DNA of 64,000 nucleotides from Paludibacteraceae bacterium. Lineage in GTDB: Bacteria; Bacteroidota; Bacteroidia; Bacteroidales; Paludibacteraceae. The stretch covers positions 47,792 through 111,791 of the forward strand of contig JAFSTO010000029.1 in assembly GCA_017450435.1 (NCBI GenBank), written 5' to 3'. The notes under the pieces were generated by a model, which made no database searches, was not told where the DNA came from, and saw nothing but the letters and a program-made list of their open reading frames with translations. Below, piece by piece: positions 17,116 through 53,907 of the stretch. The position numbers and the translations under genes are program-made. Position 1 is the stretch's first letter, and each line of letters starts with the position of its first letter.

Positions 17116-17147
17116 TTGTACGTCTCGAAAAAAAGTAGTAATTTTGC
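17116..17147 (+). promoter_or_regulatory. Promoter of the first endonuclease gene
   Basis: TTG at 17116-17118, a 20-base spacer, and TAATTTTGC at 17139-17147, 56 bases before the ATG at 17204. The longer in-frame reading that starts at 17144 begins inside this -7 box, which rules it out. Confidence 0.7.
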
Positions 17148-17203
17148 AAATAATAAACTTAAAAGCAACTTTGCTTAACTATTATTTACCGCAATTTACT
17201 ACC

Positions 17204-18793
17204 ATGAAGAAAGTCTCCCTTTCTCTTTTGATTGTGCTTGTTTCGGCCGTTGTCGCGGCTCAACCTTCTGCGAATCACTACACTGAACTTAACAATAAGT
17301 CAGGTGCGACGCTTGTTACGGCTATCAGCACTTGTGCTGCTAAGGGCTATCATAGTTTGGGCTATGACGGACTGTATTCCGCCTATGAACAAACGGACGC
17401 ACGGGCCAACGGTAAGGTATGGGATATGTACAGCAACTGTACATTCTCCTTCTCCAACAAAGGCGGAAATAGCTCTGAATGTGCGGGTTGGAACAGAGAA
17501 CACACTGTGCCGCAGAGCTGGTGGGGCAAAGGTACGTCTAACCAAGGCTGCGATATCTTTCAGGTCATACCGACTGACGCCTATGTCAACAACCGCCGTA
17601 GTAACCACCCTTACGGAGAGGTGAATAATGCGACTTGGACGTCGCAGAACGGCAGCAAGGTGGGCTCGTCAAGCATTAGCGGCTACAGCGGCACGGTGTT
17701 CGAACCGATAGATGAATACAAGGGTGACCTGGCCAGAGGGATATTAGGCGCAATGATCAAATGGAAAGGCAATTGGACACAAAGCGAAGGAAACTCCACC
17801 TTCAGTGGCGTGTATGACGACTCGCACAACTATGGTCTGACGCAGTATGGCATAAATGTCTTCCTTAAATGGCATCGCCAGGATCCTGTCTCGCAAAAAG
17901 AGCTTGACCGCAACAACGCTATTGAGCGCACACAGGGCAATCGTAATCCGTTCATCGACTATCCTGAGTTGGTGGAATATTTGTGGGGAAACAAGAAGAA
18001 CCAATCGGTTTCGCTTGCTTCCCTTGTTAGTGCTTATGACGGCTACGCGCCTGATACAACGACCACTAACCCCGTTGACACTACTCACACTACGCCTGTT
18101 GATACCACCACTACGCCTGTCATCATCAGCGGAGACGGCGAATACGTGAAGGTAACGAGCAATCTTAATGACTGGAGCGGCGTTTATCTCATTGTCAGTG
18201 AGGCGGACAATGTGTGTCTTGACGGCTCTGATGCAAGCAAACTGTCAAGCAGCAACACCAAGTCAGTGACGATAGCCTCTGCCAAGATTGCTTCAGACAA
18301 CGTTGTTGATGCTGCGGCGTTCATCGTTTCGCCTGCTGAGAGCGGATATTATATAAAGAGCCGGAGCGGCTACTATATTGGCCACACGGGCAGCAAGAAC
18401 TCGCTTGACAGCAGTACTTCGCTGGACTTCGTGAACACTATCGCTGTTAACAACGGCGTGGCCGCTATCGGTTGCGACGGAAGAATGATGCGGTATAACA
18501 GCTCGGCTCACATGTTCCGCTATTATTCTACCGGACAAGGTGATATAGTGCTCTATCGTAAGACAGCTACTGCAACGTCGCTTGACAATAATGCGGATAA
18601 CGGTTATACGCTACTTACCTTCGGGCAGGATATTATCATGCAGAGTGAGCAACCGGCGCAGATTGCTGTGTATGACAGGCTCGGACGGATGATTATCTTA
18701 CGCGCGGATGTAACATCGTTCTCCTGTACTTTGCCGCAGGGATTGTATATTATCATTGTTAATGGTAATGCAGAGAAAGTGCTTGTCAGATAA
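17204..18793 (+). CDS. Secreted endonuclease I with type A T9SS sorting domain
   Basis: This 529-residue exported nuclease has a signal peptide (residues 1-20, VVSAVVAAQ-like end). The endonuclease I/NucM domain covers about residues 25-285, with the active-site motif NREHTVPQSWW (His100) and IPTDAYVNNRRSNHPYGEV. A Thr/Pro/Asp-rich linker (repeats of TTTPVDT type) leads to a beta-rich domain from about residue 310. The last 65 residues fit a type A C-terminal domain of the type IX secretion system: AVYDRLGRMI, LPQGLYIIIVNG and the basic end KVLVR. It probably degrades extracellular DNA or RNA at the surface. Its nuclease domain is similar to the one encoded at 31151-32686. Confidence 0.88.
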   Translation: MKKVSLSLLIVLVSAVVAAQPSANHYTELNNKSGATLVTAISTCAAKGYHSLGYDGLYSAYEQTDARANGKVWDMYSNCTFSFSNKGGNSSECAGWNREHTVPQSWWGKGTSNQGCDIFQVIPTDAYVNNRRSNHPYGEVNNATWTSQNGSKVGSSSISGYSGTVFEPIDEYKGDLARGILGAMIKWKGNWTQSEGNSTFSGVYDDSHNYGLTQYGINVFLKWHRQDPVSQKELDRNNAIERTQGNRNPFIDYPELVEYLWGNKKNQSVSLASLVSAYDGYAPDTTTTNPVDTTHTTPVDTTTTPVIISGDGEYVKVTSNLNDWSGVYLIVSEADNVCLDGSDASKLSSSNTKSVTIASAKIASDNVVDAAAFIVSPAESGYYIKSRSGYYIGHTGSKNSLDSSTSLDFVNTIAVNNGVAAIGCDGRMMRYNSSAHMFRYYSTGQGDIVLYRKTATATSLDNNADNGYTLLTFGQDIIMQSEQPAQIAVYDRLGRMIILRADVTSFSCTLPQGLYIIIVNGNAEKVLVR

Positions 18794-18817: not shown

Positions 18818-20608
18818 ATGAAAAAACTCTTTCTATCACTTGGTTTGATTGTTCTGTGTGGTTTGGCAGCTATGGCTGACTGCACTGTTTTCTACACCGG
18901 CACCTATTCCAAGCCTTACGTCTATGCTTGGACTAACGGTGGTGAGATGACGTGGCCGGGCAAGGCGATGACGAAGACAAACTTCACTTACTCAGACGGG
19001 ACCAACACCTCGGATATTTGGTCATATACGTTGTCTGCCAATTACAGCTTTGCTATCTTCTCCAACAACGGCAGCCCGCAGACGAGCAACCTCTCTTGCG
19101 ATTGTGGTAAGCTGTATGTAGAGAGCAAGGACGAGTGGATTGATTATGCAGGCACGGGCAATGTGCTTGACACAGCGCAGGCTGTGATTGTGGACACGCA
19201 TGGAAAGGTTGTGCCGATTGAGTCGGAAGACATCATGCTGCAAGGGTTCTACTGGGATAGCGACAAGTCGGACGCTCCGTACGGGCGCACCAAGTGGATT
19301 GACCTGCTTGCTGATTCATCGTCGCTCGCGAACTTTGATATCATCTGGCTTCCGTCGCCTGTCAGGTCATCCGGTGGTCTGGGCTATCACCCTACGCAGT
19401 GGAGCAGTTTCGACAGCGGACTCGGTACGAATGTTAATCTTCTCAAACTCATTGCCGCTTTGCATCGTGCCGATACGAAAGTAGTGGCAGATATCGTGGT
19501 TAACCACCGTGCTAACAGCAACGACTGGTGCTCGTTCTTCCCTGATAACTTCGGCTCTGACTACGCCTCACCAAGCTCCCCGACAGGCAACTATCAGTTT
19601 ACTGCAGAGCATATAGTCAGCGACGATGAGGCTTTCTCCGACACCAAGAGCAGTTGCTACGGCAGTACTATTCATGGTGCGCCGGACTCAGGTACCGAGC
19701 CGTGGACAGGAGCACGAGACCTCGACCACACCAACCCTTATGTGCAGGACGCCGTGAAGTCGTATCTCGCCTTTTTGCAGAACGTGGCAGGCTTCGATGG
19801 CTGGCGATACGACCTCGTTAAGAGCTATGCTCCTAAGTATTTGGAGATGTATAACCTCGCTTCGATGCCCTATATCTCAGTCAGCGAGTATTGGGACGGG
19901 CTGGCAGCGGTTAAGTCGTACCTGCGCCGAACCAACTACCACACCATGGCGTTCGACTTCCCGATGAAATTCAAGGCATTCAACCAAGGTATTCAGACAG
20001 GTGCTTACGGCAACCTTAAGTCGTCAACCGGCGAGAAGCTCTCAAGGGCTGAAGGCTTGAGCAGATATGCCGTCACTTTTATTGACAACCATGACACTTT
20101 CAAACGCGGTGACAGAAACGAGTTCTGTGACGGCACCGGCGCCGGCAAGTCACTCAGCAATACCGCCAACCACGCTAAGGTGCTGGAGGCTAATGCTTAC
20201 CTGCTCTCTATGCCGGGACTGCCTTGTGTATTCTACCCGCACTGGGTTACTTTCCGCTCGCAGATAAAGAAACTGATGCAGGCGCGTCGTATAGCCGGCA
20301 TCCATTCGGAGAGCGAGGTGACGGACGAAACCTCCGCTACCAACAGTTACTCTGCCGTCGTACACGGCAAGCACGGAACACTCCTGCTGAGGCTTGGTAC
20401 AGCTCGCGACACTACCACCCCGCAGGGGTATGTGCTTTACACGAGCGGAGAACGTTATTCGGTTTATCTGAATATCACCGACGGCACGTGGAACGACCTC
20501 GAACAAGTGACCTCAGCACCCGCTGCTACCAAACTGATGGAGAACGGCACCGTTGTCATACTGCGCGACGGAAAACGCTATTCCGTTCTCGGGCAACCTA
20601 TTGAGTAG
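18818..20608 (+). CDS. Secreted alpha-amylase (GH13) with CBM26-like module
   Basis: This 596-residue protein has a signal peptide (LIVLCGLAAMA). It continues with a short starch-binding-type module (about residues 22-120; YVYAWTNGGEMTWPGKAM matches CBM26-type domains). The GH13 catalytic barrel has the nucleophile Asp332 in GFDGWRYDLVK, the acid/base Glu357 in ISVSEYWDG and Asp426 in FIDNHD. VVADIVVNH is conserved region I. It should hydrolyse internal alpha-1,4 bonds of starch outside the cell. The C-terminus ends ENGTVVILRDGKRYSVLGQ, the tail motif shared by six neighbours. It starts 24 bases after the endonuclease gene, so the two are likely co-transcribed, and it is clearly related to the next amylase. 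Confidence 0.92.
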   Translation: MKKLFLSLGLIVLCGLAAMADCTVFYTGTYSKPYVYAWTNGGEMTWPGKAMTKTNFTYSDGTNTSDIWSYTLSANYSFAIFSNNGSPQTSNLSCDCGKLYVESKDEWIDYAGTGNVLDTAQAVIVDTHGKVVPIESEDIMLQGFYWDSDKSDAPYGRTKWIDLLADSSSLANFDIIWLPSPVRSSGGLGYHPTQWSSFDSGLGTNVNLLKLIAALHRADTKVVADIVVNHRANSNDWCSFFPDNFGSDYASPSSPTGNYQFTAEHIVSDDEAFSDTKSSCYGSTIHGAPDSGTEPWTGARDLDHTNPYVQDAVKSYLAFLQNVAGFDGWRYDLVKSYAPKYLEMYNLASMPYISVSEYWDGLAAVKSYLRRTNYHTMAFDFPMKFKAFNQGIQTGAYGNLKSSTGEKLSRAEGLSRYAVTFIDNHDTFKRGDRNEFCDGTGAGKSLSNTANHAKVLEANAYLLSMPGLPCVFYPHWVTFRSQIKKLMQARRIAGIHSESEVTDETSATNSYSAVVHGKHGTLLLRLGTARDTTTPQGYVLYTSGERYSVYLNITDGTWNDLEQVTSAPAATKLMENGTVVILRDGKRYSVLGQPIE

Positions 20609-20669
20609 GGAACACCTAACTCTATAGTCTCTCTATATCCTATAGTCTCTAAAAAACACAATATAATCC

Positions 20670-22493
20670 ATGAAACGACATTTACCATTACTCTTAACTT
20701 TCCTTTTGTTCTGTACAGTAGCTGTAGCTGAGCCGTTTTACGTATGTGTTAACGGCACTGACAATTATCTTGCTACAGCCACCGGTGAGGCTGACTTTCA
20801 AGGCCGCACGCAGTATGCTGCCACATGTATTGCGCTCAAGGCAGGTGACGTCATTACATGCTACGATGCCGGTTCGGGTTCTAATTGGCATATCGGAGTG
20901 ATTGACCCATACGGCGCTTACCAGAAGTTCACCATGACTGCCTCGTCGCTTACCTGCAACACGGCTGGCAACTACGACCTATATATCAAACTAAAGTTCG
21001 AGGATGACATGTGGTATATAGGCGACGCTGCAGAGGGATGCACACCTGCAGGCAAGGACGACCCGTCCAACCCCGTCTATTCAAGCAGTGCTCCGGCGCA
21101 GTGCAAGGACGTGATGCTGCAGGGCTTCTATTGGGACTCGTATGCCGACCACGGCTACGGTCGTACCAAGTGGATTGACCTCAAGACGCAGACCACAGAG
21201 ATAGGGCAGTGGTTTGACCTCGTATGGCTACCGCCTTCAGCTAAGTCAACAGGCGGCACCGGATATGTTCCGCGCCAATATAGCATTCAGGACTCCGACT
21301 GGGGAACGAAGAAGAACCTTTTTGCCGTCATTGACGGACTGCATAACAACGGCTGCAGGGTAGTGGCGGATATTGTGGTAAACCACTATGGTAATTCCAC
21401 AGGCTGGTGCAGCTATTACCCGCTGAACTTCGGCGAGTACGGTCAGTTCCAACCGACCTCTGACTGGATTGTCAATATCGATGAGTGCTTCTACGACAAC
21501 GGTTCGGAATGTAAAGGCGGTTCTGGCGGCGGCAACGACGACGGCTACGGGGACACACAGAACTACGAAGCTGGACGCGACCTATGCCACAGCAAGGCAG
21601 AGGTGAGAGATATGATAAAGGCTTACCTCAAGTGGATGATTAACGTCATCGGGTATGACGGCTTCCGTTATGACTATTGCAAAGGCTTCCATACCTCACA
21701 CATCAACGACTATAACCGTGCTGCTGAGGCTTACTTCTCGGTGATGGAGTACTGGGACGGCGATGCCGGCGTGCTTGACCAGCGCCTCAACGAGGCAGGC
21801 TATAACACGCTTACCTTCGACTTCGGAACCAAGTACGCGGCTTTCAATAACGGTATAGCTGCCGACAACTACGCCGGCTGTAAAGGTTCTGGTCTGCTTG
21901 GCTATGGGAAGAGCCGCTACGCCTGCACCTTCGTCGATTCGCACGACTCGTTCCAACGCGATGATAACGAGTTCTGCGGCTATGGCAACTCGATGAAGTA
22001 CAAAGACAAACTGATGCAGTGCAACGCCTTTATCCTCTCTATGCCCGGTGTGCCCTGCGTGTTCTATCCGCACTGGGTGACATTTAAGGCAGACCTGAAG
22101 AAACTGATAAACGCGCGTTATAAGACCGGTGTACACTCCGAGTCTGCTGTCAGTGACGAGGCCGGTAACGGCTTCTACAAGGCTACTATCACCGGCACTA
22201 ACGGTACACTCATACTGCGTCTTGGACCTAACTCCGACTACGGCACTACGCCTGCCGGCTATACTTTAGCTGCTAAGGGTACCAATTGGGGTGTGTATTA
22301 CAAACTCAACAGCAACGTGGCAGACAAAGACAAGAGCCGCACTGCTATACGTACCGACTTAAGTGCTCGCACCGATGTAGAGGATGTGGAGGAAGCACCT
22401 GTAAGCAACGCACGCAAGGTGGTGGAGAACGGACAGATTTACATCTATGTCGGAAACGAGAAGTACACACTTACCGGACAACCGGTGAGATGA
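20670..22493 (+). CDS. Secreted alpha-amylase (GH13), paralogue of the upstream gene
   Basis: This 607-residue protein has a signal peptide and an N-terminal beta module of about 100 residues that also occurs in the product of the following gene (NGTD..., NYDLYIKLKF, YIGDAAEGC). The GH13 domain carries Asp335 in GYDGFRYDYCKG, Glu360 in FSVMEYWDGD and Asp426 in FVDSHD. It shares QGFYWDS, GRTKWIDL, VVADIVVNH and CVFYPHWVTF with the preceding amylase, so the pair arose by tandem duplication, but the N-terminal modules differ. The tail ends ENGQIYIYVGNEKYTLTGQ plus three residues. A hairpin follows at 22523-22549. Confidence 0.92.
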   Translation: MKRHLPLLLTFLLFCTVAVAEPFYVCVNGTDNYLATATGEADFQGRTQYAATCIALKAGDVITCYDAGSGSNWHIGVIDPYGAYQKFTMTASSLTCNTAGNYDLYIKLKFEDDMWYIGDAAEGCTPAGKDDPSNPVYSSSAPAQCKDVMLQGFYWDSYADHGYGRTKWIDLKTQTTEIGQWFDLVWLPPSAKSTGGTGYVPRQYSIQDSDWGTKKNLFAVIDGLHNNGCRVVADIVVNHYGNSTGWCSYYPLNFGEYGQFQPTSDWIVNIDECFYDNGSECKGGSGGGNDDGYGDTQNYEAGRDLCHSKAEVRDMIKAYLKWMINVIGYDGFRYDYCKGFHTSHINDYNRAAEAYFSVMEYWDGDAGVLDQRLNEAGYNTLTFDFGTKYAAFNNGIAADNYAGCKGSGLLGYGKSRYACTFVDSHDSFQRDDNEFCGYGNSMKYKDKLMQCNAFILSMPGVPCVFYPHWVTFKADLKKLINARYKTGVHSESAVSDEAGNGFYKATITGTNGTLILRLGPNSDYGTTPAGYTLAAKGTNWGVYYKLNSNVADKDKSRTAIRTDLSARTDVEDVEEAPVSNARKVVENGQIYIYVGNEKYTLTGQPVR

Positions 22494-22580
22494 TTGATAA
22501 TTGATGGTTGATGGATTGATGCCCCGCTCGTGTTGTATATACACGCGGGTAAATGGTATATGGTAAATGAACCAATGGTA
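22494..22580 (+). repeat. Degenerate 7-nt tandem repeats (TTGATRR, then AATGGTA)
   Basis: TTGATAA, TTGATGG, TTGATGG and a partial fourth unit run without gaps from 22494, directly after the amylase stop. A second set, AATGGTA/TATGGTA, starts at 22552 with another copy at 22574. The hairpin at 22523-22549 lies between the two sets. Confidence 0.7.
22523..22549 (+). terminator. Hairpin after the second amylase gene
   Basis: The stem CCCGC..GTGT / ACAC..GCGGG (two-base bulge, loop TGTATAT) has no clear T-tract. It may be a weak terminator or an mRNA-end structure. Confidence 0.4.
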
Positions 22581-22602
22581 CATAACTTAAACCTAATACA
22601 CA

Positions 22603-23496
22603 ATGAAAAAATCTTTACTTTTTTTAGCAAGTGTTCTGTGTTCACTGCTTGCTATTGGTGCTGATTATGGCATCATGATTAACGGCACTGATTTCCATGC
22701 CGGAACGGCCAACCCTACTCCGGGTGACCCGTCATTTCAAGAATACATGGTTCTTGGTGTGAGTGTGCAGAGTGGTGCTACCCTGCAGTTGTACGACAAC
22801 GAGAACAAAGCCGGTTGGGCGGTTGACCTTGACGGTGCCAGCGTTGCCGGCATAACACGTGACGGCGACCACTACAACTGCACTGAGACGGGCTGTTATG
22901 ACTTCTACATCAAGCTGAAGTTCAACGCTGACCAACTCTATATAGGTGCGAGCAATGGTTGCGGCAATCAGGGAGGTAATGGCGGCAATGGTGGAAACCA
23001 AGGTGGCAACCAAGGTGGCACTGTAGAAGGTAATCCGCGTTATTACTACAAGGGATTCATTGACGATGCTGATTTCGAGCCGCAGGATATATCGCTCTTC
23101 AATCAGGGTGTAGCCACTATCAGCTTCTCGCAGGCTGCGTACATCTTTGTGCTCTATCAGGTGGATAACTTCGACGGAGTGCAATATATGACTGAGTCGT
23201 ATGTTGACGGTCCTACACACGCCACTCTCTACGTTGACGGCAAGGGTAAGTATGAGAAGTGGAAAGTGCCGGTTGGTACTACCAAACTCTACCTCTATGA
23301 TAACGGTGACGGCTCATTGGAGATTTCCAGTGAACCAATGTCGGGCAAGACCCTTGTCAATCCTGCCGGTAAGTCGGCGGTGGAGAACGTCAGTGGCAAC
23401 ACCGACAAGACCGTTAAGTTCATTCGCAACGGGCAGATATTCATCCGTAAAGGCAACGCTGTCTATAACGCGCTTGGTGTGATAGTGAACGAGTAA
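22603..23496 (+). CDS. Secreted beta-module protein, probable starch-region accessory protein
   Basis: This is a 297-residue exported protein of unknown role. After a signal peptide (LASVLCSLLAIGA) comes a module of about 100 residues that aligns with the N-terminal module of the preceding amylase (INGTDF..., CYDFYIKLKF, LYIGASNGC). A Gly/Asn/Gln-rich linker follows (repeats of NGG and NQGG), then a second beta domain (RYYYKGFIDDADF, AAYIFVLYQVDNF). The tail is RNGQIFIRKGNAVYNALG plus four residues. No catalytic motif is seen. Sharing a module with the amylase suggests carbohydrate binding, which is inference. Confidence 0.75.
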   Translation: MKKSLLFLASVLCSLLAIGADYGIMINGTDFHAGTANPTPGDPSFQEYMVLGVSVQSGATLQLYDNENKAGWAVDLDGASVAGITRDGDHYNCTETGCYDFYIKLKFNADQLYIGASNGCGNQGGNGGNGGNQGGNQGGTVEGNPRYYYKGFIDDADFEPQDISLFNQGVATISFSQAAYIFVLYQVDNFDGVQYMTESYVDGPTHATLYVDGKGKYEKWKVPVGTTKLYLYDNGDGSLEISSEPMSGKTLVNPAGKSAVENVSGNTDKTVKFIRNGQIFIRKGNAVYNALGVIVNE

Positions 23497-23598
23497 AGAT
23501 ATGTATTCTCAAACACCAAAAATTTCTCAAAAGAAATAAGTATAACGAACTATACTTTTAAATCGAACAATATTATTAACAAATAAAATCAAAGTATC

Positions 23599-26500
23599 AT
23601 GAAGAAACTACTTTCTTTTCTGATGGCTGCGCTTTTTAGCGTAGGACTGTTTGCAACAAGCATTACGATGCCGGCGACAGTGTTAGATTTGCAAAATCCA
23701 ACCATGGTGACCGATGCCGGTTGGACAGGTGAATCGGCCTATTATCTTGACAAAGATGTGTTTGTAACATCGGGTCAGGAGTCCCGTCAATCTACAGCAA
23801 AGCAAACATGGATAACTTTTTTATCCACTGGCAGTAGCAACTCCACGTGGGATGCCCTTGCTCCTTTCAAAGGGTCTGATTACTACACCAACAAGGCCTA
23901 TGCAACCTTACAAGCAGGTCGTTACACCGCTTATTTGGTAACTGGTTGCGACTCTGTATGGGTGTATGGTTACAACAATGCCGCTACCAAGTATCTGGCA
24001 ATGAAGATCTATGATGTAACAGGATCTAATGCAACCTCTATTGATGATGCCACCGTTACTGCTACATACGCAGTAGATTTGTCAGCAGCAGGCGGCAAAG
24101 GCACCGGTGTGATGAAACAAGCACTTGATGCAACGAAGACATATTTGGTAGTAACAACGGGAACAGGTAACAGTAATAGTCGTGTATATGAAGTGGCATT
24201 CTTCCGTCACCCGTCAGCGGCTCCACAACCTTCTACCACCAAGACCGTTTATTGCAAGGTAGCTCAAGACTGGTGGAAAGCTGACGGCGCTGCTGTAGGC
24301 GTGTATGCTTTCAAGGGCGAGACACACAACGCTGAATGGCCGGGTGTACGCATGACCGCTGTAGAAGGTGAGACTGACCTTTGGAAAGCAGACATCGACA
24401 CTGCAGCTTATTCAGCAATCATCTTCACACGTGTAAACGCTTCCGGTGACATCGCAGACTGGGGCGCAAAGACTGCTGACCTCACTATCCCGGCTGACAA
24501 AGACCTCTACACCATTACTTCTACTTCTGCCGTTTGGGGCGACCCGGGCGTAACCGGCACTTGGTCAATTTATGGCGAAGAACCGGTTGTGGTAGAGCCT
24601 ACGCTGGCTAATGGTTTCTATCTTATTGGCAAAATCAATGGCGTAGAAGGATGGGCAGTTGCTAATCTGAGTGCTGACCGCAAGTTTGCGGGCAACCCGG
24701 ACAACAATGCTGAGTTTGTTCTGACCGCTACTCTCGCAGAGGGTGATGAGATAAAGGTTGTAAATGTTCTTAACGATGAAATAACCGCTTGGTATCCTGC
24801 CGAGGGAGGTAATTATACCGTTGACGCAGCGCACGCAGGCGAGAAAGACATCTACTTCCGTCCTGACCTGCAAGGTGGCGAGGGCTGGTTTGGCGCTTGC
24901 ATCTATATTGCTGCTAACGCAGAGCCGCAACCTGTAGCTGCTGTGGAACTGCCCGCTACATTGGATGTAACGAACGTAAGTTTCCGTTCCGAGGGTATGC
25001 CGGACTTCGTGATTGAAGAAGGTCAGGACTATGCCGGAACATACTTCGACATGGGTGCTCACGACAGCTCTAACGACACACTTCTCTATGCAGAGTGGAA
25101 TGTAACGATCCAACCGATTAAGTACAATGTAGCTGTGGATGTGTATAACGAAAATAGCTGGAGCGTACAACTCTATCTTCTCAACCAGGCAGGTGATACG
25201 GTTAAGGCATTGCGTCACAAGGGTTCGTCCGCTCAGAAGGGACAATTCGCTATCGGAGCTTTGGACTTGAGCGACTTGGAAGCCGGCGACTATAAGGTAC
25301 GCGCACGTGCAGCTACTGCATGGTCGCAAATGAAGCTCAAAGACGTTATCTTCGTGGCAGACTATAAAGGCGTGCTTGTCGAACTGCCGGGTACGCTGCA
25401 ACCTGCTTATGCAGAGCTCTCTTCCGGTGCTTCGGTGGCTAACAATGCTATTGCTTTCGCTCCGGGCACGGCAAACAGCGAATATGCTACATGGAACGTA
25501 AGTTTCGCTAAAGCCGGCATATACAACGTAACGATTGACATTACTGCTACTAATGGCCACACCTATGGTGTAGCGCTCCTCTCAGCAGACGGCGCAACGG
25601 AAATCGGTGCTGTAGCAGAAACTCAGGTTTGGGACACCGGTGTTAAAGCATTAGGTTCTATCGCTGTTGCTGAAGCCGGTAACTATAAGGTGAAACTGAC
25701 CAACGCTACACAATGGTCAGAGGCAGTGCTCAACAGTGTCACCTTTGACGCAGCCCCTGTTTATGCTATCTCCGGAGCTTGGCACGAGTTCGACAAAGAC
25801 CTCTTTGAGGTTGCAACAGACGGAAAGACTGCTTCCTTCTCTATCTTCCTCAATCATGGCGACTATGAGTTCAAGATTCGTAAAGACGACGCATGGCTAA
25901 CCAAGGCAAACAATGGTGTGGCATACGGACTCCACCGTAAGTGGGCAGGTGTGGCAGGCGTTGTAGATGATGCTTCAGAGAACCTCAAACTCACCGCTGA
26001 CGTTGCAGGTACATACAAGTTTGTGTGGACCTTTGCAAACGACTCTCTTGGAATAGTGTTCCCTGCAGAGCTGCAAGCTGTCAGCGAAGCTACTTCTTGG
26101 GACTTCTCTAAGATTGCGCGCAACACCGAAAATGCTCTCCAGTCAAGCAACGGAATCAAACTGACGGATACATCAACTCCGAACAAGAATGAAGAAGTGG
26201 TATATGCTAATTATTCCGCTGACTTTATGACTTTCAGCGAAGGATTTGACGCTGCTACTATGGCATTCAAAGGCGAGTATCCTACTCGTAACAATAAGTT
26301 TTGTCAGGCAGGAACCGTTCATTTCAAGACGACGGTTGCCGGCTCAATTACTGTTAAGTTCTCTGATACCGGTTCCAGCGCATCTGCAACTGCCGTTAAG
26401 CGCTATCTTGTTGTAAACGGCGAGCAGACTGAATATTGGACATCTCGTGAAAATAACGGTGATCAGCCGTATGCAGCTCAGTTGGAGGTCGTTACAGAGC

Positions 26501-28254
26501 AGATTAGCGTACCTGCAGGAGATGTTACTATCACCGGCTCATCTGCTATTTGTATTTATAATGTTACCTTTGCTCCGGCTCAGGAAGAGGTTGGCTACTA
26601 CCTAAAGAACAACTGGGACGCAGCTGAAACTTGGACTTGGAAAGCGATGACCAAGGACGGCGATACCTACAAACTGGAGAATGTAGTATTCGGCGGCACA
26701 GGCGTGAACTACAACACCGCAGAGTCTGATGAAGGTTCCGTTTGGGTAGCGCTGGAAGATATGGAAGGCGACGAAATCGAAGCAAAGGACACTGTTACCT
26801 TCGTTCTTAATCCTGCCGACGGTACCATTACCGCTACTCTCGTTGGCGCATTCTTTGAGCCTATTGATTTGCAGGATTGCGATTGGGAGAATATCGCTTT
26901 CGTTGGTGGCCCCGCTGAGTACGCTGAGCAGTTCAAGGTATGCAAACCTGAGAACATGAACGTGGTTAATATCCAAAATCCGGCATGGAGCACGAAGACA
27001 CAAATGGGTATATACATGACTTTCCCGGCTGCTTCATTCGGCAATATTACTTTGGATGAAGACTTGTATGAGATACAAGGTGCAGGTATTCTGTTCTTCC
27101 TCTCTGCATTCACCGCTCAGGAGACTGAATTTATTGTTAACTGCGAAGGCAACAACCTTGCGATAACCGTTTACAATGTTAAGGCCGACGGACCGGAATT
27201 AGAGCATGCTTATACCGTAGCAGGCAGCTCGGATGCTGTGTTCGGAACTGCTTGGGACCCGACAAATACCGACAACGACATGGTTAAACAAGAGGATGGT
27301 ACATACAAGTTCGTGAAGGCTAATGTTGTTCTGCCGGCAGGTGCAATCGGGTTCAAAGTGTGTGAGGATTATGCATGGGATGTTGCTTATCCTGCAAGCG
27401 ACTATCAGTTGAATATTGCTGAGGCAGGCGAATATACCATCACTATTACATTTGATCCTGAGACTAAGGCGGTTGCCGCTACTGCAGATAAGACTGCTGT
27501 GGTTGAGGTTGATCCTACTGTTTCTGCTAAAGGTTCTTGGGATGAATGGACAAATGAGATACCTTTCGTTCTCTCTGACGACAAGACTACAGCAACTCTG
27601 ACCATTGCTAATGTTGCTGCCGGAACGTATGAGTTCAAGGTCATTCTCAATGGCGGTGATTGGCGTTCGAATGCTCATGTCTTCACTCGTACAGATGCTG
27701 AAGCAGAGGGTATTAACGGCAATGATAATACCAATATGAAGCTGTTTGCCGACGTTGAGGGTGAGTATGTCTTTACATGGACATTTGCTACCAACTCGTT
27801 GTCTGTTGAATTCCCTGATGGTGAAGTAGTAGAGCCTACGCTCGAAAACGGATACTATCTTGTAGGGGACTTCAACGACTGGACACCGGCTGCTGAGTAT
27901 CTTTTTGCTGCAAACGAAGGTGCTGATGGCGAGTTTGTTCTCAATACCTCACTTGAGGGAGCTACTGAGTTGAAAGTGGTTTATGTTGTGAACGATCAGA
28001 ATGTGACTTGGTTTGGTGCAAATAACTATCAGATCCCTGAAGAACTCCGTCGTGAGGTGGTTATTTATTTCCGTCCGAATGCTAATACAGACTGGAGCGC
28101 TCTTGACGGTCATCTCTATATAATGGCTGATACAGCTGACGCTATAGATAACCTCGACGCGAGCGGGACTCCGGTTAAGATTATCCGCAACGGACAAATC
28201 TTTATTCTCCGCGGTGAGCAACTCTACAACGCTCAAGGACAATTAGTGAAGTAA
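23599..28254 (+). CDS. 1551-residue secreted multi-module protein, probable carbohydrate binder
   Basis: This very large exported protein has a signal peptide (FLMAALFSVGLFAT) and a string of beta modules with no enzyme motif. The module around residues 215-330 (WWKADGAAVGVYAFKG, AEWPGVRM) is CBM26-like. Two further module types each occur at least twice. One begins PTLANGFYLIGKINGVEGW (about residue 335) or PTLENGYYLVGDFNDWTP (about 1415). The other is written as SGAWHEFDKDLF...TYKFVWTFANDSLGIVFP and KGSWDEWTNEIPF...EYVFTWTFATNSLSVEFP. Such segments resemble starch-binding domains of SusE/SusF and E-set domains. The tail RNGQIFILRGEQLYNAQG plus three residues matches the neighbours. Codons are A/T-richer than in the amylases. 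Confidence 0.82.
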   Translation: MKKLLSFLMAALFSVGLFATSITMPATVLDLQNPTMVTDAGWTGESAYYLDKDVFVTSGQESRQSTAKQTWITFLSTGSSNSTWDALAPFKGSDYYTNKAYATLQAGRYTAYLVTGCDSVWVYGYNNAATKYLAMKIYDVTGSNATSIDDATVTATYAVDLSAAGGKGTGVMKQALDATKTYLVVTTGTGNSNSRVYEVAFFRHPSAAPQPSTTKTVYCKVAQDWWKADGAAVGVYAFKGETHNAEWPGVRMTAVEGETDLWKADIDTAAYSAIIFTRVNASGDIADWGAKTADLTIPADKDLYTITSTSAVWGDPGVTGTWSIYGEEPVVVEPTLANGFYLIGKINGVEGWAVANLSADRKFAGNPDNNAEFVLTATLAEGDEIKVVNVLNDEITAWYPAEGGNYTVDAAHAGEKDIYFRPDLQGGEGWFGACIYIAANAEPQPVAAVELPATLDVTNVSFRSEGMPDFVIEEGQDYAGTYFDMGAHDSSNDTLLYAEWNVTIQPIKYNVAVDVYNENSWSVQLYLLNQAGDTVKALRHKGSSAQKGQFAIGALDLSDLEAGDYKVRARAATAWSQMKLKDVIFVADYKGVLVELPGTLQPAYAELSSGASVANNAIAFAPGTANSEYATWNVSFAKAGIYNVTIDITATNGHTYGVALLSADGATEIGAVAETQVWDTGVKALGSIAVAEAGNYKVKLTNATQWSEAVLNSVTFDAAPVYAISGAWHEFDKDLFEVATDGKTASFSIFLNHGDYEFKIRKDDAWLTKANNGVAYGLHRKWAGVAGVVDDASENLKLTADVAGTYKFVWTFANDSLGIVFPAELQAVSEATSWDFSKIARNTENALQSSNGIKLTDTSTPNKNEEVVYANYSADFMTFSEGFDAATMAFKGEYPTRNNKFCQAGTVHFKTTVAGSITVKFSDTGSSASATAVKRYLVVNGEQTEYWTSRENNGDQPYAAQLEVVTEQISVPAGDVTITGSSAICIYNVTFAPAQEEVGYYLKNNWDAAETWTWKAMTKDGDTYKLENVVFGGTGVNYNTAESDEGSVWVALEDMEGDEIEAKDTVTFVLNPADGTITATLVGAFFEPIDLQDCDWENIAFVGGPAEYAEQFKVCKPENMNVVNIQNPAWSTKTQMGIYMTFPAASFGNITLDEDLYEIQGAGILFFLSAFTAQETEFIVNCEGNNLAITVYNVKADGPELEHAYTVAGSSDAVFGTAWDPTNTDNDMVKQEDGTYKFVKANVVLPAGAIGFKVCEDYAWDVAYPASDYQLNIAEAGEYTITITFDPETKAVAATADKTAVVEVDPTVSAKGSWDEWTNEIPFVLSDDKTTATLTIANVAAGTYEFKVILNGGDWRSNAHVFTRTDAEAEGINGNDNTNMKLFADVEGEYVFTWTFATNSLSVEFPDGEVVEPTLENGYYLVGDFNDWTPAAEYLFAANEGADGEFVLNTSLEGATELKVVYVVNDQNVTWFGANNYQIPEELRREVVIYFRPNANTDWSALDGHLYIMADTADAIDNLDASGTPVKIIRNGQIFILRGEQLYNAQGQLVK

Positions 28255-28293
28255 AGTACGAAGATTTTTTTGAAGTACAAAGTAATAAACCCA

Positions 28294-28325
28294 AGAGAGG
28301 TGGTCGAAAAGACCACCTCTCTTTG
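28294..28325 (+). terminator. Strong intrinsic terminator after the 1551-residue protein gene
   Basis: The 12-bp perfect stem AGAGAGGTGGTC / GACCACCTCTCT has the loop GAAAA and a short T-rich tail. Confidence 0.85.
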
Positions 28326-28440
28326 TTCGAGTGCTCGCCAACGTGTATAGACTGTAATTGGGGAGGTTTTTGGGGGTGGCTCTTACCGTCTCTCCCCTAT
28401 CAAATCTCTTTGTTGGGTGTTGCTCGCGTCAGGGAGCGAA

Positions 28441-28476
28441 AAAAAACGCTAAATACTTTTGTATTCGGCGTTTTTT
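28441..28476. terminator. A/T-flanked hairpin overlapping the next promoter
   Basis: AAAAAACGC pairs with GCGTTTTTT, continuing through AATAC/GTATT around a TTTT loop. It has an A-tract on one side and a T-tract on the other, so it can work in both directions. The -33 region of the promoter at 28459-28488 lies inside it. Confidence 0.7.
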
Positions 28477-28488
28477 TTGTAACTTTGC
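28459..28488 (+). promoter_or_regulatory. Promoter of the third amylase gene
   Basis: TTG at 28459-28461, an 18-base spacer and TAACTTTGC at 28480-28488 (exact -7 consensus). Transcription would begin about 60 bases before the ATG at 28548, giving a leader made largely of ACTTGGT repeats. Confidence 0.65.
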
Positions 28489-28495
28489 ATATTGT

Positions 28496-28531
28496 ACTTG
28501 GTCACTTGGTACTTGGTACTTGGTCACTTAA
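28496..28531 (+). repeat. Tandem ACTTGGT heptamers in the leader of the third amylase gene
   Basis: ACTTGGT occurs at 28496, 28504, 28511 and 28518, with a related ACTTAAT at 28526. The 7-nt phase is broken twice by a single extra C. The array lies between the -7 box and the start codon. Confidence 0.85.
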
Positions 28532-28547
28532 TCTAATACACAATACC

Positions 28548-31016
28548 ATGAAGAAGTTTATTTTACTCTTGTTTTCGTGTGCCGCGCTCTCGCTATTTGC
28601 GCAAGTCACCACTACTCCTGCTATTATCGACAAAGGTTACAGCGGTGAGGTAATCATTACTTATGACCCGACAGCCGGCAACGGCGGCATGGCGTCAGCT
28701 ACTAAGTGTTATGCCCACACCGGTCTTATCACCTCAGCCTCAGCTGATAACGGCGACTGGAAGAACGTCATCGGTAGTTGGCGTGGAGCCACACAACCGC
28801 AACTGACTAAGGTAGGAACGAAGTGGCAACTCACAATTCCAAACATCTACACTTTCTATGGAGTGCCCGAAACAACCGACATCATCGCGCTTGCTTTCGT
28901 CTTTCACGATGGCCCCGGCGGCACGAAGGAAGGGAAGACCACTGCCGGAGGAGATATTCTGCTCTTCCTTGGCGAGGATAATACCGGCTCCGATATATGG
29001 GCAGGCTTCACCCCTGCGGCCGCAACGCAGCAGTCTCGGCCGACAGGCATAGAGCAAGGTATCTACTATGACCCTAATGACCCTACAGCCGTCACGCTCT
29101 GCACCTACGCTGCCAGCAAGACAGCGCCTGCACAACACGTCTTTCTTATCGGCGATATGAACGACTGGAAGCTCGATAACAGCTATCAGTTAAAACGCGA
29201 CGGTAACTACTTCTGGATTCGCGTTACAGGTCTGACCCCGGGTGAGCCGTATCGTTTCCAATATGCTGTTGTCAGAGCCGATGGGGTAAAGAAGCAGATA
29301 AGTGACCTTTATTCGGAGATGGTGCTGCACCCCGATGACAAGTATGAGCCGCGTAGCGTCAACCCTGACCTGCTCGGATACCCGCTCAAGGGGGCCGACG
29401 GCGGATATGTTACCGTCATTCAAACCGACAAGCCTAAGTTCCAATGGAGCAACGAGACGCTTAACTTCCAACGTCCTGACAAGAATAATCTTCTGATTTA
29501 CGAACTATGGGTATATGACCACACGCCGATGCGCTCTTTGCAAGGATTGATGGAAAGACTGGATTATATTCAGAACCTCGGTGTCAATGCTGTTGAGCTG
29601 ATGCCCGTCAATGAGTTCGACGGCAACGTCAACTGGGGCTACTCGCCTAACCATTATTTTGCAGTGGACCGTGCATACGGCTCCGGCGATGACCTCAAAA
29701 CGTTTGTTGACGAGTGTCACAAGCGCGGACTTGCCGTTATTCTTGATATGGTCTTCAATCACGCTACAGGACTTAACCCGATGAACAAACTTTATCCATA
29801 CGGTTCGGACCTTGCGCAAAACCCGTGGTTCAACGTGTCAGCACCACATCCGGACAATGTGTATGAGGACTGGAACCACGACTTCGAGCCGGCACACAAG
29901 ATGTTTATTCGTGTATTGAAATATTGGATAGAAGAGTATCACATCGACGGCTATCGTATGGACCTTAGCCACGGACTTTGCGGTGCTTCATACAACGCTG
30001 TAGCTAATTTGAAAGACTACTATCAAAACGGTGTTCAGGCCGCTGCAAACGATGCGTATTTCATCCTTGAGCACTGGGGTACATCTATGGGCACTGACCG
30101 TCCGCAGCTTGTGAATGCCGGCATGCTCTGCTGGCAGAACACTTGCAACGCCTATCAGCAGACCGCTATGGGTTGGCTAAAGGACGGAGACTCCTTCAGC
30201 GACGCGAACAAAGACGGATACGTCAGCTATTGTAATAACCACGATGAGGAACGCCCGTTCTTCAAGGCTAAACAATGGGGCAACGGCGACCTGCAGACTA
30301 ACGACTCGGCACGAGTGGCACGTGTGCCGCTCAACATGGCGTTCCTATGCCTGCTCAACGGCTCGCACCTGTTCTACCATTTCGATGAACTCGGATTTGA
30401 CTTCTCTAAGTACCAGTTTGCTAACGGCAAATGGGGTAAGGACGGCGTTGATGCCTACGGTAAGACTGTAGCCGCTAACGCTAAGACAAGCGAGGCGAAG
30501 ATGACAGTCAAGTATCGCCCGGAAAGCTGGATGAGAGAAGCCGGTATTCGCATGCAGGCTTACGCCAGGACTGCGGAGATACTACAACTGCGTACGCGTC
30601 TGATGCCGCAGGTTTTTGAAGGTAATCCTACGTCGGTGTCTGTCGGCAGTGGAAAGGAATTGCGCACTATTCAGTGGGGAAACGATGTGTTTGTAGCCGG
30701 TAACTTCTCTGTTGCTGCCTCGCAGAGTGTCACTCTGCCTGACGGCACATGGTACGACTATCTGGCAGGTGGTGTGCAAGCGGGTGCGTCCTACACGCTG
30801 CAGCCCGGTGAGGTGATAGTCTTTACCGGCACGGCAATCACGCCGCCGGTTATACCGAATGCTTATCCGGATATCACTCTCGGCTTGGATGAAACACCGG
30901 TTTATGATTTCTTCTCCAATCGTGCTGACAAGGCAGTCAAGCGAATAATTGACGGACGACTTGTTCTCATCCTTGACGGTCGCTCATACGATGCCCTCGG
31001 TCGTCGCATACAGTGA
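28548..31016 (+). CDS. Secreted GH13 alpha-glucan hydrolase with CBM48-like domain
   Basis: From the ATG at 28548 the product is 822 residues. A signal peptide (LLLFSCAALSLFAQ) is followed by an N-terminal beta domain, a CBM48/E-set-like domain (HVFLIGDMNDWKLDNSYQLKRD) and a GH13 barrel. Its catalytic residues are Asp472 (DGYRMDLSHG), Glu508 (YFILEHWG) and Asp566 (NNHDEER). The domain order is closer to branching/debranching-type GH13 enzymes than to the two amylases upstream, so it may attack alpha-1,6 bonds or act as an amylase; the sequence does not settle this. The tail IDGRLVLILDGRSYDALG plus four residues shares the neighbourhood motif. An upstream in-frame extension to 28323 would cross the promoter and terminator and is rejected. 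Confidence 0.88.
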   Translation: MKKFILLLFSCAALSLFAQVTTTPAIIDKGYSGEVIITYDPTAGNGGMASATKCYAHTGLITSASADNGDWKNVIGSWRGATQPQLTKVGTKWQLTIPNIYTFYGVPETTDIIALAFVFHDGPGGTKEGKTTAGGDILLFLGEDNTGSDIWAGFTPAAATQQSRPTGIEQGIYYDPNDPTAVTLCTYAASKTAPAQHVFLIGDMNDWKLDNSYQLKRDGNYFWIRVTGLTPGEPYRFQYAVVRADGVKKQISDLYSEMVLHPDDKYEPRSVNPDLLGYPLKGADGGYVTVIQTDKPKFQWSNETLNFQRPDKNNLLIYELWVYDHTPMRSLQGLMERLDYIQNLGVNAVELMPVNEFDGNVNWGYSPNHYFAVDRAYGSGDDLKTFVDECHKRGLAVILDMVFNHATGLNPMNKLYPYGSDLAQNPWFNVSAPHPDNVYEDWNHDFEPAHKMFIRVLKYWIEEYHIDGYRMDLSHGLCGASYNAVANLKDYYQNGVQAAANDAYFILEHWGTSMGTDRPQLVNAGMLCWQNTCNAYQQTAMGWLKDGDSFSDANKDGYVSYCNNHDEERPFFKAKQWGNGDLQTNDSARVARVPLNMAFLCLLNGSHLFYHFDELGFDFSKYQFANGKWGKDGVDAYGKTVAANAKTSEAKMTVKYRPESWMREAGIRMQAYARTAEILQLRTRLMPQVFEGNPTSVSVGSGKELRTIQWGNDVFVAGNFSVAASQSVTLPDGTWYDYLAGGVQAGASYTLQPGEVIVFTGTAITPPVIPNAYPDITLGLDETPVYDFFSNRADKAVKRIIDGRLVLILDGRSYDALGRRIQ

Positions 31017-31048
31017 AACAGACAAGACTTACGCCACAATTACAATCA

Positions 31049-31096
31049 CCGTCTCTACACGTTGTCCGACCTTGTTTTGCCAGCGTGTAGAGACGG
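31049..31096. terminator. Long inverted repeat between convergent genes
   Basis: CCGTCTCTACACG (31049-31061) and CGTGTAGAGACGG (31084-31096) are perfect complements with a 22-base loop. It lies between the converging third amylase and second endonuclease genes and probably ends transcription from both sides. Confidence 0.6.
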
Positions 31097-31118
31097 TATT
31101 TTATACTGTCTCGCAAAA

Positions 31119-31154
31119 GTACGAAAGATAGAAGTACGATGTACGAAGTATCAT
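31119..31154 (-). repeat. ACTTCGT-type heptamers at the 3' end of the second endonuclease gene
   Basis: On the plus strand, GTACGAA (31119), GTACGAT (31134), GTACGAA (31141) and GTATCAT (31148). On the minus strand these read as ACTTCGT-type units, matching the ACTTGGT repeats at 28.5 kb except for one base. The last copy runs into the stop codon of the endonuclease gene. Confidence 0.65.
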
Positions 31155-32686
31155 CTGATTCGTCTGCCGAAGGCATCGTAGGTGCCGGTGGTGTGACGGA
31201 TGAAGAGACTGCCGTTTTGGAGGTATTTCACTGCCTGCGGTGCTTGCGTCCGGGCGTCATTTTTTGACTTCTGACTGCTGATTTCTGATTGCTGACTGTT
31301 CACGTCGTCTATTGCTGTCTCCGTGTTCTTACGCGCCGTAAGAAGGTATAACTCCTGCATGCAGGCACGCTTGGCTGTACTACCGCCTATGGATACGAGA
31401 CGCAGTGTGTTTGTGCCTGCCGGGATGCTGATTGTGTAACGCACCTCGTTGCGAGTGTTTTTTACGACAGTCTCTTGTATAGATTGTAGCAGGCAGTCGT
31501 CGGCATACACATCAAGCTGCATGCTTGTAGCGCTGTTGTATGGCGAAGCGCGGAAGACAAGCAAGGCGCTGTCGCTAAGCGCAAGTGAGGTGAAGCGTAG
31601 TTCACCATCGTCGCTTGATGTCCCCATTGTGATAGAGGCAGAGCCGTTGGACTGAATGCGGTTCAGTGCTGAGCCGCCGGGAACGGCATTAACGAGTGCT
31701 GACGTAAGGGCAGGAAGGTTGATAATGGTGTCGTAGAGGTGAAGACTGTCAACAGGAGAAATGTAGTCATGACAAACAGCCGTTCCGGCCGTGCAACTGA
31801 GCGAAGCAAGAGAAACGGTGTTGCCACGCATGTTTCCCCAGATATATTCAACTAACTCCGGATAGTCAATGAACGGGTTACGGTTGTGCTGTATGTCTGA
31901 GATGCTGTTGGCTCGACAAATCTCTTTTTCGCTGACAGGGTCCGAGCGATGCCAGTCAAGCAACACTTTTTTAACACTATCCGAGAACATCAGATACGAT
32001 GTTTTGCTGATATACTGCGCATACTTGCTGTCCCAATTGATATCCTCGTATGCTGTGGCGATATAGAAATACGCACGTGCAAAGTCGCCTCGGTATTCCG
32101 CTGCCGGTTCGAAGCATATATACCCGTATCCGGAGCTTGCGGCATTATCCATTCGGAATGAGCCATTGTCAAACTTATCGCCTTTTTTTACGTGCCCCGG
32201 AGCGTAGTTGCTCTTCTGCTGATTGGCAGCTTGATCGGATGGATTGAGGTGGTACAGGTCTTTGTATGCATCGTTAACCGTGCCACCCCACCATGACTTT
32301 GGCAGGCAGTGTTCTATATTCAACGAGCAGCCGGAGTCGCCGCGTTTATTGGGGTAGTAGCGTCGGCTGTCGGAGTACATATCCCAGACGCTGCCGTCCT
32401 CGCGTATGTCGGTCAGAGGAAAAGCCTGCCAAGTGCCATATTCCTTCAGGTCGCCTTTAACCCACTGTGGCGGGTTGTTGCTGCTGTGGTACGTAGTGGT
32501 ACCGTATGCGTACCTTACCCCACCGCGACATATACGGCTCAAGGTGCTCTTAAGCAGCGAGTCGCTCTTTCCCTCAATGGAATCGTAGTAGGACAGAGGA
32601 ATGTCTTCTGCCTTGACAGACTGATAGCAGGTTGCTACAAGCAGCATAATAAAGGTTACTGCGGTGAGGTGAGAATTAAGTTGCAT
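31151..32686 (-). CDS. Secreted endonuclease I, second copy, with the short shared tail
   Basis: This 511-residue exported nuclease has a signal peptide (FIMLLVATCYQSVKA) and an endonuclease I domain (about residues 45-310) with the active-site motif NIEHCLPKSWW (His126) and the substrate-loop equivalent LNPSDQAANQQKSNYAPGHV. The segment NRNPFIDYPELVEYIWGN is almost identical in the endonuclease at 17204-18793. A beta domain of about 120 residues follows, then a Ser/Gln-rich linker encoded by five 7-nt repeats, then the tail QNGSLFIRHTTGTYDAFG plus four residues. Unlike the first copy it lacks a full type A sorting domain. Confidence 0.87.
   Translation of the reverse strand: MQLNSHLTAVTFIMLLVATCYQSVKAEDIPLSYYDSIEGKSDSLLKSTLSRICRGGVRYAYGTTTYHSSNNPPQWVKGDLKEYGTWQAFPLTDIREDGSVWDMYSDSRRYYPNKRGDSGCSLNIEHCLPKSWWGGTVNDAYKDLYHLNPSDQAANQQKSNYAPGHVKKGDKFDNGSFRMDNAASSGYGYICFEPAAEYRGDFARAYFYIATAYEDINWDSKYAQYISKTSYLMFSDSVKKVLLDWHRSDPVSEKEICRANSISDIQHNRNPFIDYPELVEYIWGNMRGNTVSLASLSCTAGTAVCHDYISPVDSLHLYDTIINLPALTSALVNAVPGGSALNRIQSNGSASITMGTSSDDGELRFTSLALSDSALLVFRASPYNSATSMQLDVYADDCLLQSIQETVVKNTRNEVRYTISIPAGTNTLRLVSIGGSTAKRACMQELYLLTARKNTETAIDDVNSQQSEISSQKSKNDARTQAPQAVKYLQNGSLFIRHTTGTYDAFGRRIR
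31265..31299 (-). repeat. Five consecutive 7-nt repeats inside the endonuclease coding sequence
   Basis: The plus strand reads TGACTTC, TGACTGC, TGATTTC, TGATTGC, TGACTGT (consensus TGAYTKY) without interruption. On the coding strand they encode the Ser/Gln-rich linker just before the C-terminal tail. Because 7 is not a multiple of 3, gain or loss of a unit would shift the frame of the tail. Confidence 0.88.
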
Positions 32687-48564: not shown

Positions 48565-48786
48565 ATGTATTGGACATTGGAATTGGCATCAAAACTTGAG
48601 GACGCTCCATGGCCTGCCACCAAGGATGAGTTGCTGGATTATGCAATGCGTGTTGGAGCTCCGATGGAGGTGATAGAAAACCTTCGTGAACTTGAGGATG
48701 AAGAAGAAGAATATGAGACTATTGAGGATATATGGCCGGATTACCCTCAAAAAGAAGACTTTTTCTTCGACGAAGAGGAATATTAA
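48565..48786 (+). CDS. DUF2795-family small acidic protein
   Basis: This is a 73-residue cytoplasmic protein. The start MYWTLELASKLEDAPWPATKDEL and the end ETIEDIWPDYPQKEDFFF match the short DUF2795 proteins found throughout Bacteroidota. The in-frame extension to TTG 48514 is not supported by that family start. Its stop ends one base before the TTG start of porP, so translation is likely coupled to the type IX secretion genes. Its function is unknown; the high Asp/Glu content suggests a protein-binding role. Confidence 0.85.
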   Translation: MYWTLELASKLEDAPWPATKDELLDYAMRVGAPMEVIENLRELEDEEEEYETIEDIWPDYPQKEDFFFDEEEY

Positions 48787-48787
48787 T

Positions 48788-51294: not shown

Positions 51295-52137
51295 ATGGCT
51301 AAAAATGAAGTAAAAGGCGTCAAGAAGATGTCAGGATGGGACAAAGTCTGTGCGTGGTATGCAAGTCACGGAGTTGCCGTAGGTATGATTTACTCTATCG
51401 GTGCTTCTGTCGTTATCATCGGTGCGTTGTTCAAGATTTTGCACTGGCCGGGTGCTTCCTATGTGCTAATGGCCGGTATGTTTACCGAGGCATTCCTGTT
51501 TATCATCGGTATCTTCGAGAAACCGCATCCAACATATCATTGGGAGAATGTGTATCCAGAGCTTATTCACGAGGAGGCTTCTGAGGAGGAAGCGCATCCG
51601 GCTATTGAGGCAAAGAAAGCGCCTGCTATCGGTGAGAGTGCTTCTGCTCATGTTGAAACCCCTTCATTTGCAGGTTTGGAAGATAAAGATGTGAAGGCTC
51701 TGAAAGAGAGTATAGCTAAGATGGCTTCTACAGCCGGTAGTTTGGCTGACCTGGGCAAGTTGGCAGAAGGAAGCAATAAGCTTTCTGACAAGCTTGCAGC
51801 AGCAGCTGACGCAACTGACAAGTTTGCAGGTGCTCAAGCCGGAATAGCAGATGCAGCCGGCAAGCTTGGTGCTAACTATCAGGAGGCAGCCAAGTACTCG
51901 GAGTCTCTCCGTGCCGATACCGAGGCTGCGGCTAAACATCTGTCGGCTTTGAATGCAGCCTATGAGCTGAATTTGAAGGCTGTTCAGGGTACAGTGGCTG
52001 AGGCAGAGAAGATGGCTGCCGCTAATGCGGCTGCCGCTAAGGCTGGTGAGGCTTTTGCTGCTGCTCAGGATAAGCTGGCTCAGCAACTGGCTGACCTTAA
52101 CAAGGTTTATGGCAATATGCTCAATGCTCTTGCTTAA
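51295..52137 (+). CDS. gldL: Type IX secretion motor protein GldL/PorL
   Basis: This 280-residue inner-membrane protein has two transmembrane segments near residues 25-70: SIGASVVIIGALFKILHWPG, then MAGMFTEAFLFIIGIFEKP. The second helix contains a buried Glu, as in the proton-powered GldL-GldM motor. The cytoplasmic part from about residue 110 is very alanine-rich and predicted helical/coiled (SNKLSDKLAAAADATDKF and similar), longer than in some homologues. It precedes gldM by 79 bases. Confidence 0.95.
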   Translation: MAKNEVKGVKKMSGWDKVCAWYASHGVAVGMIYSIGASVVIIGALFKILHWPGASYVLMAGMFTEAFLFIIGIFEKPHPTYHWENVYPELIHEEASEEEAHPAIEAKKAPAIGESASAHVETPSFAGLEDKDVKALKESIAKMASTAGSLADLGKLAEGSNKLSDKLAAAADATDKFAGAQAGIADAAGKLGANYQEAAKYSESLRADTEAAAKHLSALNAAYELNLKAVQGTVAEAEKMAAANAAAAKAGEAFAAAQDKLAQQLADLNKVYGNMLNALA

Positions 52138-53833: not shown

Positions 53834-53907
53834 CATTGTGTTGTTCAGTTGTCGGGTTGGATAATAATCTTTGAAGGCTCAGAACTAATAAATAATCTTA
53901 GTTGAGT

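Follow-up and report, generated by a model that had tools for sequence, protein, structure and literature searches.

The window analysed here, a 64,000-nucleotide stretch of DNA from a Paludibacteraceae bacterium, contains six open reading frames (ORFs) whose products share a C-terminal ending, or tail, which is very probably a sorting signal of the type IX secretion system (T9SS). On the forward strand the tail is encoded at 20522..20608 in a 596-residue GH13 alpha-amylase (ORF 18818-20608; the last 28 residues plus the stop codon), at 22407..22493 in a 607-residue GH13 alpha-amylase (ORF 20670-22493), at 23407..23496 in a 297-residue accessory protein (ORF 22603-23496), at 28168..28254 in a 1551-residue modular protein (ORF 23599-28254) and at 30930..31016 in an 897-residue GH13 protein (ORF 28323-31016), the true start of which is probably an internal ATG near 28548. 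The sixth protein, a 511-residue endonuclease I (ORF 31151-32686), is encoded on the reverse strand with its tail at 31151..31237. An earlier note on this DNA had singled out these proteins by a common C-terminal pattern, and a scan of the six-frame translation with [ND]G-x10-[YF]-x3-G-x(1,6)-stop returned exactly the same six. The ten-residue gap and the Tyr-x3-Gly are exact in all six, as claimed; the residues after the final Gly, given there as three or four, number four in five of the proteins and five in the 297-residue one. The domain names were backed by Pfam, which assigned GH13 to the 596-, 607- and 897-residue proteins, Endonuclease_1 to the 511-residue protein and X25 and AMPK1_CBM to the 1551-residue protein. 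The Pfam scan found no family in the 297-residue protein; its residues 1-122 match the start of an amylase from a metagenome-assembled genome (locus L111) at 48%. The description of the six as unrelated was therefore overstated for the window, where three are GH13 enzymes and a fourth begins like an amylase, while the cargo is more varied genome-wide. Among the matches listed, none covered the six tails in Pfam at E 0.05 or in NCBIfam at E 1 (for the 897-residue protein, 25 of 40 NCBIfam matches).

The pattern fits six of 40 tested ORFs (the window has 43 of at least 180 residues, of which three were left out), whereas shuffling of the last 40 residues gave a mean of 0.0068 and a maximum of 2 over 5000 rounds. 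We then searched the 2.65 Mb genome at E 10 with a profile built from the six tails (A1). This yielded 76 places, from which 73 tailed proteins were retained, three places being dropped and one protein being cut by a contig end. The tail is about 28 residues long and sits at the exact C terminus, with the ten-residue gap in 63 of the 73 proteins and eleven or twelve residues in the remainder. The tailed proteins are spread over many contigs, and among 20 of them outside the window Pfam at E 0.0001 recognised a family in 13 and none in 7; the cargo includes M6 peptidase, GDSL lipase, acetyl xylan esterase, flavodoxin/cyclophilin, CotH, leucine-rich repeat (LRR), GHL10, F5/8 C and fn3 families, among others. 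Coincidence, or common ancestry limited to adjacent paralogues, could draw on the three GH13 enzymes among the six window proteins; in view of the shuffles and of tails on such different proteins in so many contigs, we give this explanation almost no weight. A signal-peptide-like start was recognised by a hydropathy rule in 65 of the 68 readable N termini, the remaining five of the 73 lying outside the fetched stretches; the rule is crude, as 14 of 32 other ORFs of the window, some of them for membrane proteins, also satisfy it. Two of the 68 carry a lipobox-like string. None of the 26 TIGR04183 and 17 PF18962 places in the genome, the established models of T9SS type A C-terminal domains (CTDs), coincides with an A1 tail. 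Nor was the tail covered by any Pfam match among those listed for the 26 tailed proteins scanned. The tail is a genuine, repeatedly used C-terminal signal for which the libraries searched have no model.

In a 71-row alignment of the tails (A2), Lys4 is invariant; the Gly and Tyr/Phe columns owe part of their conservation to the pattern used to pick the rows. Pooling tails from the same genome, from other genera and from amylase homologues gave 216 sequences, of which 196 fit the ten-residue frame and 92 remained after thinning; in these Lys is present in 99%, a residue that the picking pattern did not require, and Ile14 in 88%. AlphaFold modelling of the last 46 residues of the 607-residue amylase, with 48 homologous tails as input, gave a pLDDT of 84 overall and of 93-95 over residues 21-46, a pTM of 0.51, and strands at residues 20-25, 28-33 and 36-38. 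In a model of the whole 297-residue protein, the linker at residues 255-268 has a pLDDT below 50 and is followed by strands at 270-275, 278-283 and 286-288, here at lower confidence (pLDDT blocks of 69-79). The tail is predicted to fold as a small three-stranded sheet, the models giving strand assignments and neither coordinates nor strand pairing.

The window also encodes type IX machinery, as the earlier note had stated, in a forward-strand run from 48686 to 55050 comprising a PorP/SprF-family membrane protein (48686..49759; TIGR03519, 8e-62), the ring lipoprotein PorK/GldK (49864..51249; TIGR03525), the motor proteins PorL/GldL (51295..52137; TIGR03513) and PorM/GldM (52217..53833; TIGR03517) and the ring protein PorN/GldN (53902..55050; TIGR03523). 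Elsewhere in the genome PorV adjoins PorU, and PorU itself (L172:4463-7825) bears a type A-like end that is one of the 26 TIGR04183 places, so that the sortase itself is part of the type A tally in the genus. Across 41 genomes of the genus, Sov was found in 39 and PorU in 40, with at least one of them in all 41 and both in all 17 good genomes. One genome (G700) has 67 tails and only 5 type A matches, with Sov and PorU present. Every one of the 101 family genomes has type A domains, from 3 to at least 51 each. Within the genus they number 2-41 and become fewer the more tails a genome has (Spearman rho -0.46, p 0.0024, n=41; rho -0.64 in the 19 genomes at least 90% complete), the species not being independent of one another and the p values therefore optimistic.

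Other proteins of the window bear on the type A domain. The first endonuclease I (17144..18793, forward strand) has no new tail, and the full type A domain ascribed to it is a type A-like end that scores 21.6 bits, below the TIGR04183 cut-off of 23. The same stretch gives a weak match to Pfam DUF6383 (E 0.009, under the cut-off), which may be a CTD family. Residues 506-574 of the 1551-residue protein match PF18962 weakly and far from the C terminus, probably as a beta-sandwich look-alike. A 484-residue protein at 38777-40231 combines DUF6359 with a choice-of-anchor J domain reaching residue 483, and has no new tail by regular expression and no type A domain among the matches listed.

The distribution of the tail was assessed at E 0.001; the large counts are lower bounds, as only part of the candidates was scored in some searches. 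In a sample of 296 genomes of the phylum, which held just two others of the same order, a match was found only in the genome studied here. Of the 295 genomes searched in the order, 11 gave matches, and nine of these 11 had between one and three places each. In the family 31 of 101 matched, the five members of the genus having 50-75 tails and the others 1-13. In the genus itself all 41 genomes match, with 9-99 tails each. All 23 tails read from other genera or families lie at the C terminus. The two species poorest in tails and richest in type A domains, G711 and G694, are filed in the genus with only 9 and 11 tails, yet 41 and 39 type A domains, and may mark the base of the switch. A related amylase occurs in 13 named loci, all recorded as Paludibacteraceae or Bacteroidales and most of them from the guts of sheep, goats, deer, cattle or horses; the family searched is therefore probably Paludibacteraceae, and the genus probably consists of uncultured herbivore-gut bacteria.

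The linker in front of the tail contains a candidate processing site. In its strict form, [AG][IVL][DE][DEN][VIT], the motif is present in 19 of the 70 linkers (0.7 in shuffles), and in a loose form in 37 of 70 (13.1 in shuffles). The strict motif starts 12-14 residues before the core Lys in 17 of its 19 occurrences, follows a T, S, D or N in 16 and lies mostly 36-40 residues from the C terminus. It was also found in 6 of 45 stretches upstream of type A domains (0.5 in shuffles). For comparison, PorU of Porphyromonas gingivalis is described as cleaving between T/E/D/N and G/A/S (PMC10202324), and the preference described for Prevotella intermedia is PT/GI, with Ile the most conserved residue (PMC11969387).

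We next examined the endings within a single enzyme family, taking the best 120 of 3056 homologues of the 607-residue amylase. The new tail is present in 117 of them, 115 by regular expression and two with GG in place of NG; one homologue (P0100) is cut or frameshifted, and two (P0099 and P0106, with 56-60% identity) carry a complete type A domain at the C terminus. The motif TAVEN precedes the type A end in these two and also precedes the new tail in the family. At locus L111, homologues of the amylase (43%) and of the 297-residue protein (48%) have a short ending of a third kind, [YF]N-x2-GQ-x-V, five residues and G-x2-[LI]-QNGHKY-x(1,2)-R, which is shared by a third, longer amylase-like protein of the locus and has the layout of motifs B, D and E described for the short CTDs of P. 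intermedia. A short ending of the same layout is also present in the genome studied here (L062 / L174, on G000 contig 47, in a 652-residue protein), which brings the kinds of ending in this genome to at least three. With 26 rows, 23 of them carrying the new tail, a tree of the catalytic part requires 3 changes of ending, 2 of them forced by well-supported branches. Judged by sequence, one enzyme family carries three endings in one place: a recognised T9SS signal, one laid out like a proven kind, and the new tail.

Altogether, we put at about 0.82 the probability that the shared ending of about 28 residues is a T9SS sorting signal, predicted to form a three-stranded sheet, in which the known motifs are apparently permuted. 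This reading, which upholds the sorting or anchoring role linked to type IX secretion proposed in the earlier note, is based on the C-terminal position, the genome-wide recurrence together with signal-peptide-like starts, the presence of Sov, PorU, PorV and GldKLMN, the inverse relation to type A domains, the exchange of endings and the cleavage-like motif; secretion itself is a prediction from sequence. An alternative is a module for surface retention or processing that some other factor of the genus reads, that has nothing to do with type IX secretion and that only looks like a CTD; it would fit a tail far shorter than type A. Such a module would not be expected to alternate with a type A domain among members of the same enzyme family, to relate inversely to type A counts, to share a cleavage-like motif with type A or to leave Sov and PorU in place where few type A domains remain, as in G700, and we consider it improbable.

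A number of results weigh against the reading as a permuted T9SS signal, and one group of them, to which the dependence among species mentioned above belongs, touches the link to type IX secretion. Sov was found in 10 of the 11 tail-positive genomes of the order; co-occurrence, a check suggested earlier, says little at that level because Sov is nearly universal there (278 of 295). The one tail-positive genome without Sov (G583) owes its place to a partial tail match, covering 16 model positions in a 33-residue frame. The strict cleavage-like motif was not found in 51 of 70 linkers, and fold searches with the tail were uninformative. On the amylase tree the endings are no more clustered than shuffled labels; as the shuffled labels do equally well, the tree shows exchange and not its direction. 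The P. intermedia short CTDs were compared by description, not by sequence, and motif D of the L111 endings is without its Tyr/Asn.

The other group concerns the order of the motifs, for which the type A ends of the same genome served as reference. The earlier note had seen in the last part of the tail a likeness to the first half of a type A domain that lacks its final 40 residues, and our first profile comparison did align the tail with that half (E 0.0015). In a truncated type A domain of this kind, ending just past motif B with D and E lost, the same system would be served without the motifs held essential in P. gingivalis, where HBP35 is described as needing no more than its final 22 residues, which contain D and E, and as requiring the motif E lysines (PMC10202324). 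We tried each type A segment (taken from 29-44 of the 47 ends) at every position of the tail profile. Motif B matched best at the Y-x3-G (p 0.006), which agrees with truncation as far as the final part of the tail is concerned, and motif E matched best at the near-invariant Lys (p 0.0025), which has no partner in the first half of type A. The PNP and LxI segments of that half do not match the tail (p 0.50 and 0.76), the hairpin being more D/E-like, and motif D alone is not significant either (p 0.65). We then arranged the segments in all six orders, using the 34 of 47 type A ends that have all three and segment patterns written after the tails had been seen. Order E-D-B scored 23.4 (E 5.8e-7, 25 columns), and the other five 18.1-19.2, four of them aligning motif B only and D-B-E aligning D and B. 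With the refined tail alignment, the native full-length type A profile scored 20.9 over 10 columns, covering motif B only. Truncation is on these grounds unlikely. When the E and D columns were shuffled together, the observed score was reached in 3 (global) or 6 (local) of 150 rounds, compared with 0 of 80 for E alone and 1 of 80 for D alone; because shuffled columns sometimes score as high, permutation is only moderately supported. A D/E-like hairpin preceding motif B, in a CTD with permuted motif order, fits these data better than truncation does.

The order of the two strands within the hairpin depends on the reference. The three L111 hairpins fit the tail hairpin in register, in order D-E-B (p 0.009, 0.008 and <0.0005), whereas the type A comparison favours E-D-B; both orders look better than truncation. 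A special case of permutation would be a circularly permuted short CTD, in which the D-NG-E hairpin was moved ahead of motif B, for example by tandem duplication and trimming. The registered hairpins and the unpermuted layout on the L111 homologues speak for such an origin. The three L111 endings are related to one another, a fourth short ending (C47) does not fit the tail hairpin (p 0.8), type A segments joined as D-E-B align through motif B alone, and the tails examined include no tandem intermediate. We regard a circular permutation as somewhat less likely than not. As a matter of geometry and not of results, B-D-E and E-D-B in an antiparallel meander keep the direction and the neighbours of each strand and so could present the same surface.

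Under the permuted-signal reading, the tailed protein would be exported by Sec and the tail would engage the Sov/PorV translocon. Its likely layout would be an E-like strand (K-[VIF]-[IL]), an NG turn, a D-like strand ([LVI]-Y-I-x-R), a DG turn and motif B ([YF]-[NDT]-x2-G-x2-[VI]), followed by the end of the chain. PorU would then cut the linker between [TSDN] and [AG][IV][DE][DEN] and join the protein to surface polysaccharide. By analogy, the near-invariant Lys of the tail may be the counterpart of the Lys close to the C terminus of type A CTDs and perhaps does the same job. In Flavobacterium johnsoniae an almost invariant Lys near the type A C terminus is reported to contact PorV in all structures; the same authors suspect it of serving mainly another purpose, with the fold being set by the other conserved residues (PMC10994853). 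In another study motifs B, D and E were instead modelled at PorV (PMC11969387).

T9SS cargo of uncultured rumen bacteria has so far been counted with the TIGR04183 model, as described in PMC5831590. Its 26 places in the genome studied here include none of the 73 tailed proteins; if the tail is a T9SS signal, most surface degraders of starch, xylan and protein of the genus have been missed. It is tempting to speculate that the genus has rewritten the address code of the T9SS, most cargo carrying a tiny permuted domain and the machine reading sheet shape and one lysine regardless of order, a proposal to which we give even odds. If the order is truly permuted, the tail is a natural test of whether Sov/PorV recognises the order of the sequence or the geometry of the sheet, and so short a tag might prove useful for surface display.

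Among known sorting domains, type A (TIGR04183, PF18962) resembles the tail in standing at the C terminus of proteins with a signal peptide and a cleavage linker, in having motif B and a near-invariant Lys and in being carried by members of the same amylase family. It has about 70-100 residues and seven strands, whereas the tail has about 28 residues, three predicted strands and another motif order; no tail reaches the curated model score among the matches listed, motif B has nothing after it, and the seven-stranded beta-sandwich of type A is not what AlphaFold predicts. Type B (TIGR04131, PF13585) and type C are described as alternative C-terminal signals of the T9SS (PMC10202324, PMC12618676), and neither model appeared among the Pfam and NCBIfam matches listed for the six window proteins. 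Type B comprises 150-235 residues and uses PorP/SprF shuttles, and the tail is too short for it. Like T9SS cargo in general, the tailed proteins combine a signal-peptide-like start (65/68) with a genome encoding Sov and PorU. The short CTDs described in P. intermedia (Ye et al. 2025, PMC11969387) are likewise short, 43-55 residues from the cleavage site compared with mostly 36-40 from the cleavage-like motif of the tail, and they occur beside long CTDs in one genome, as the tail does. They too form a single predicted three-stranded sheet, have the Tyr and Gly of motif B and a conserved basic residue, and follow a cleavage site with Ile at +2, where the tail has Ile and also Val in a motif that is enriched in its linkers and not present in every one. 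In contrast, they have the order B, D, E, whereas motif B comes last in the tail, and their cleavage and glycosylation were measured (PMC11969387), while the tail is known from sequence and models. We conclude that the tail is very probably a new variant among type IX sorting domains, beside types A, B and C and the P. intermedia short CTDs.

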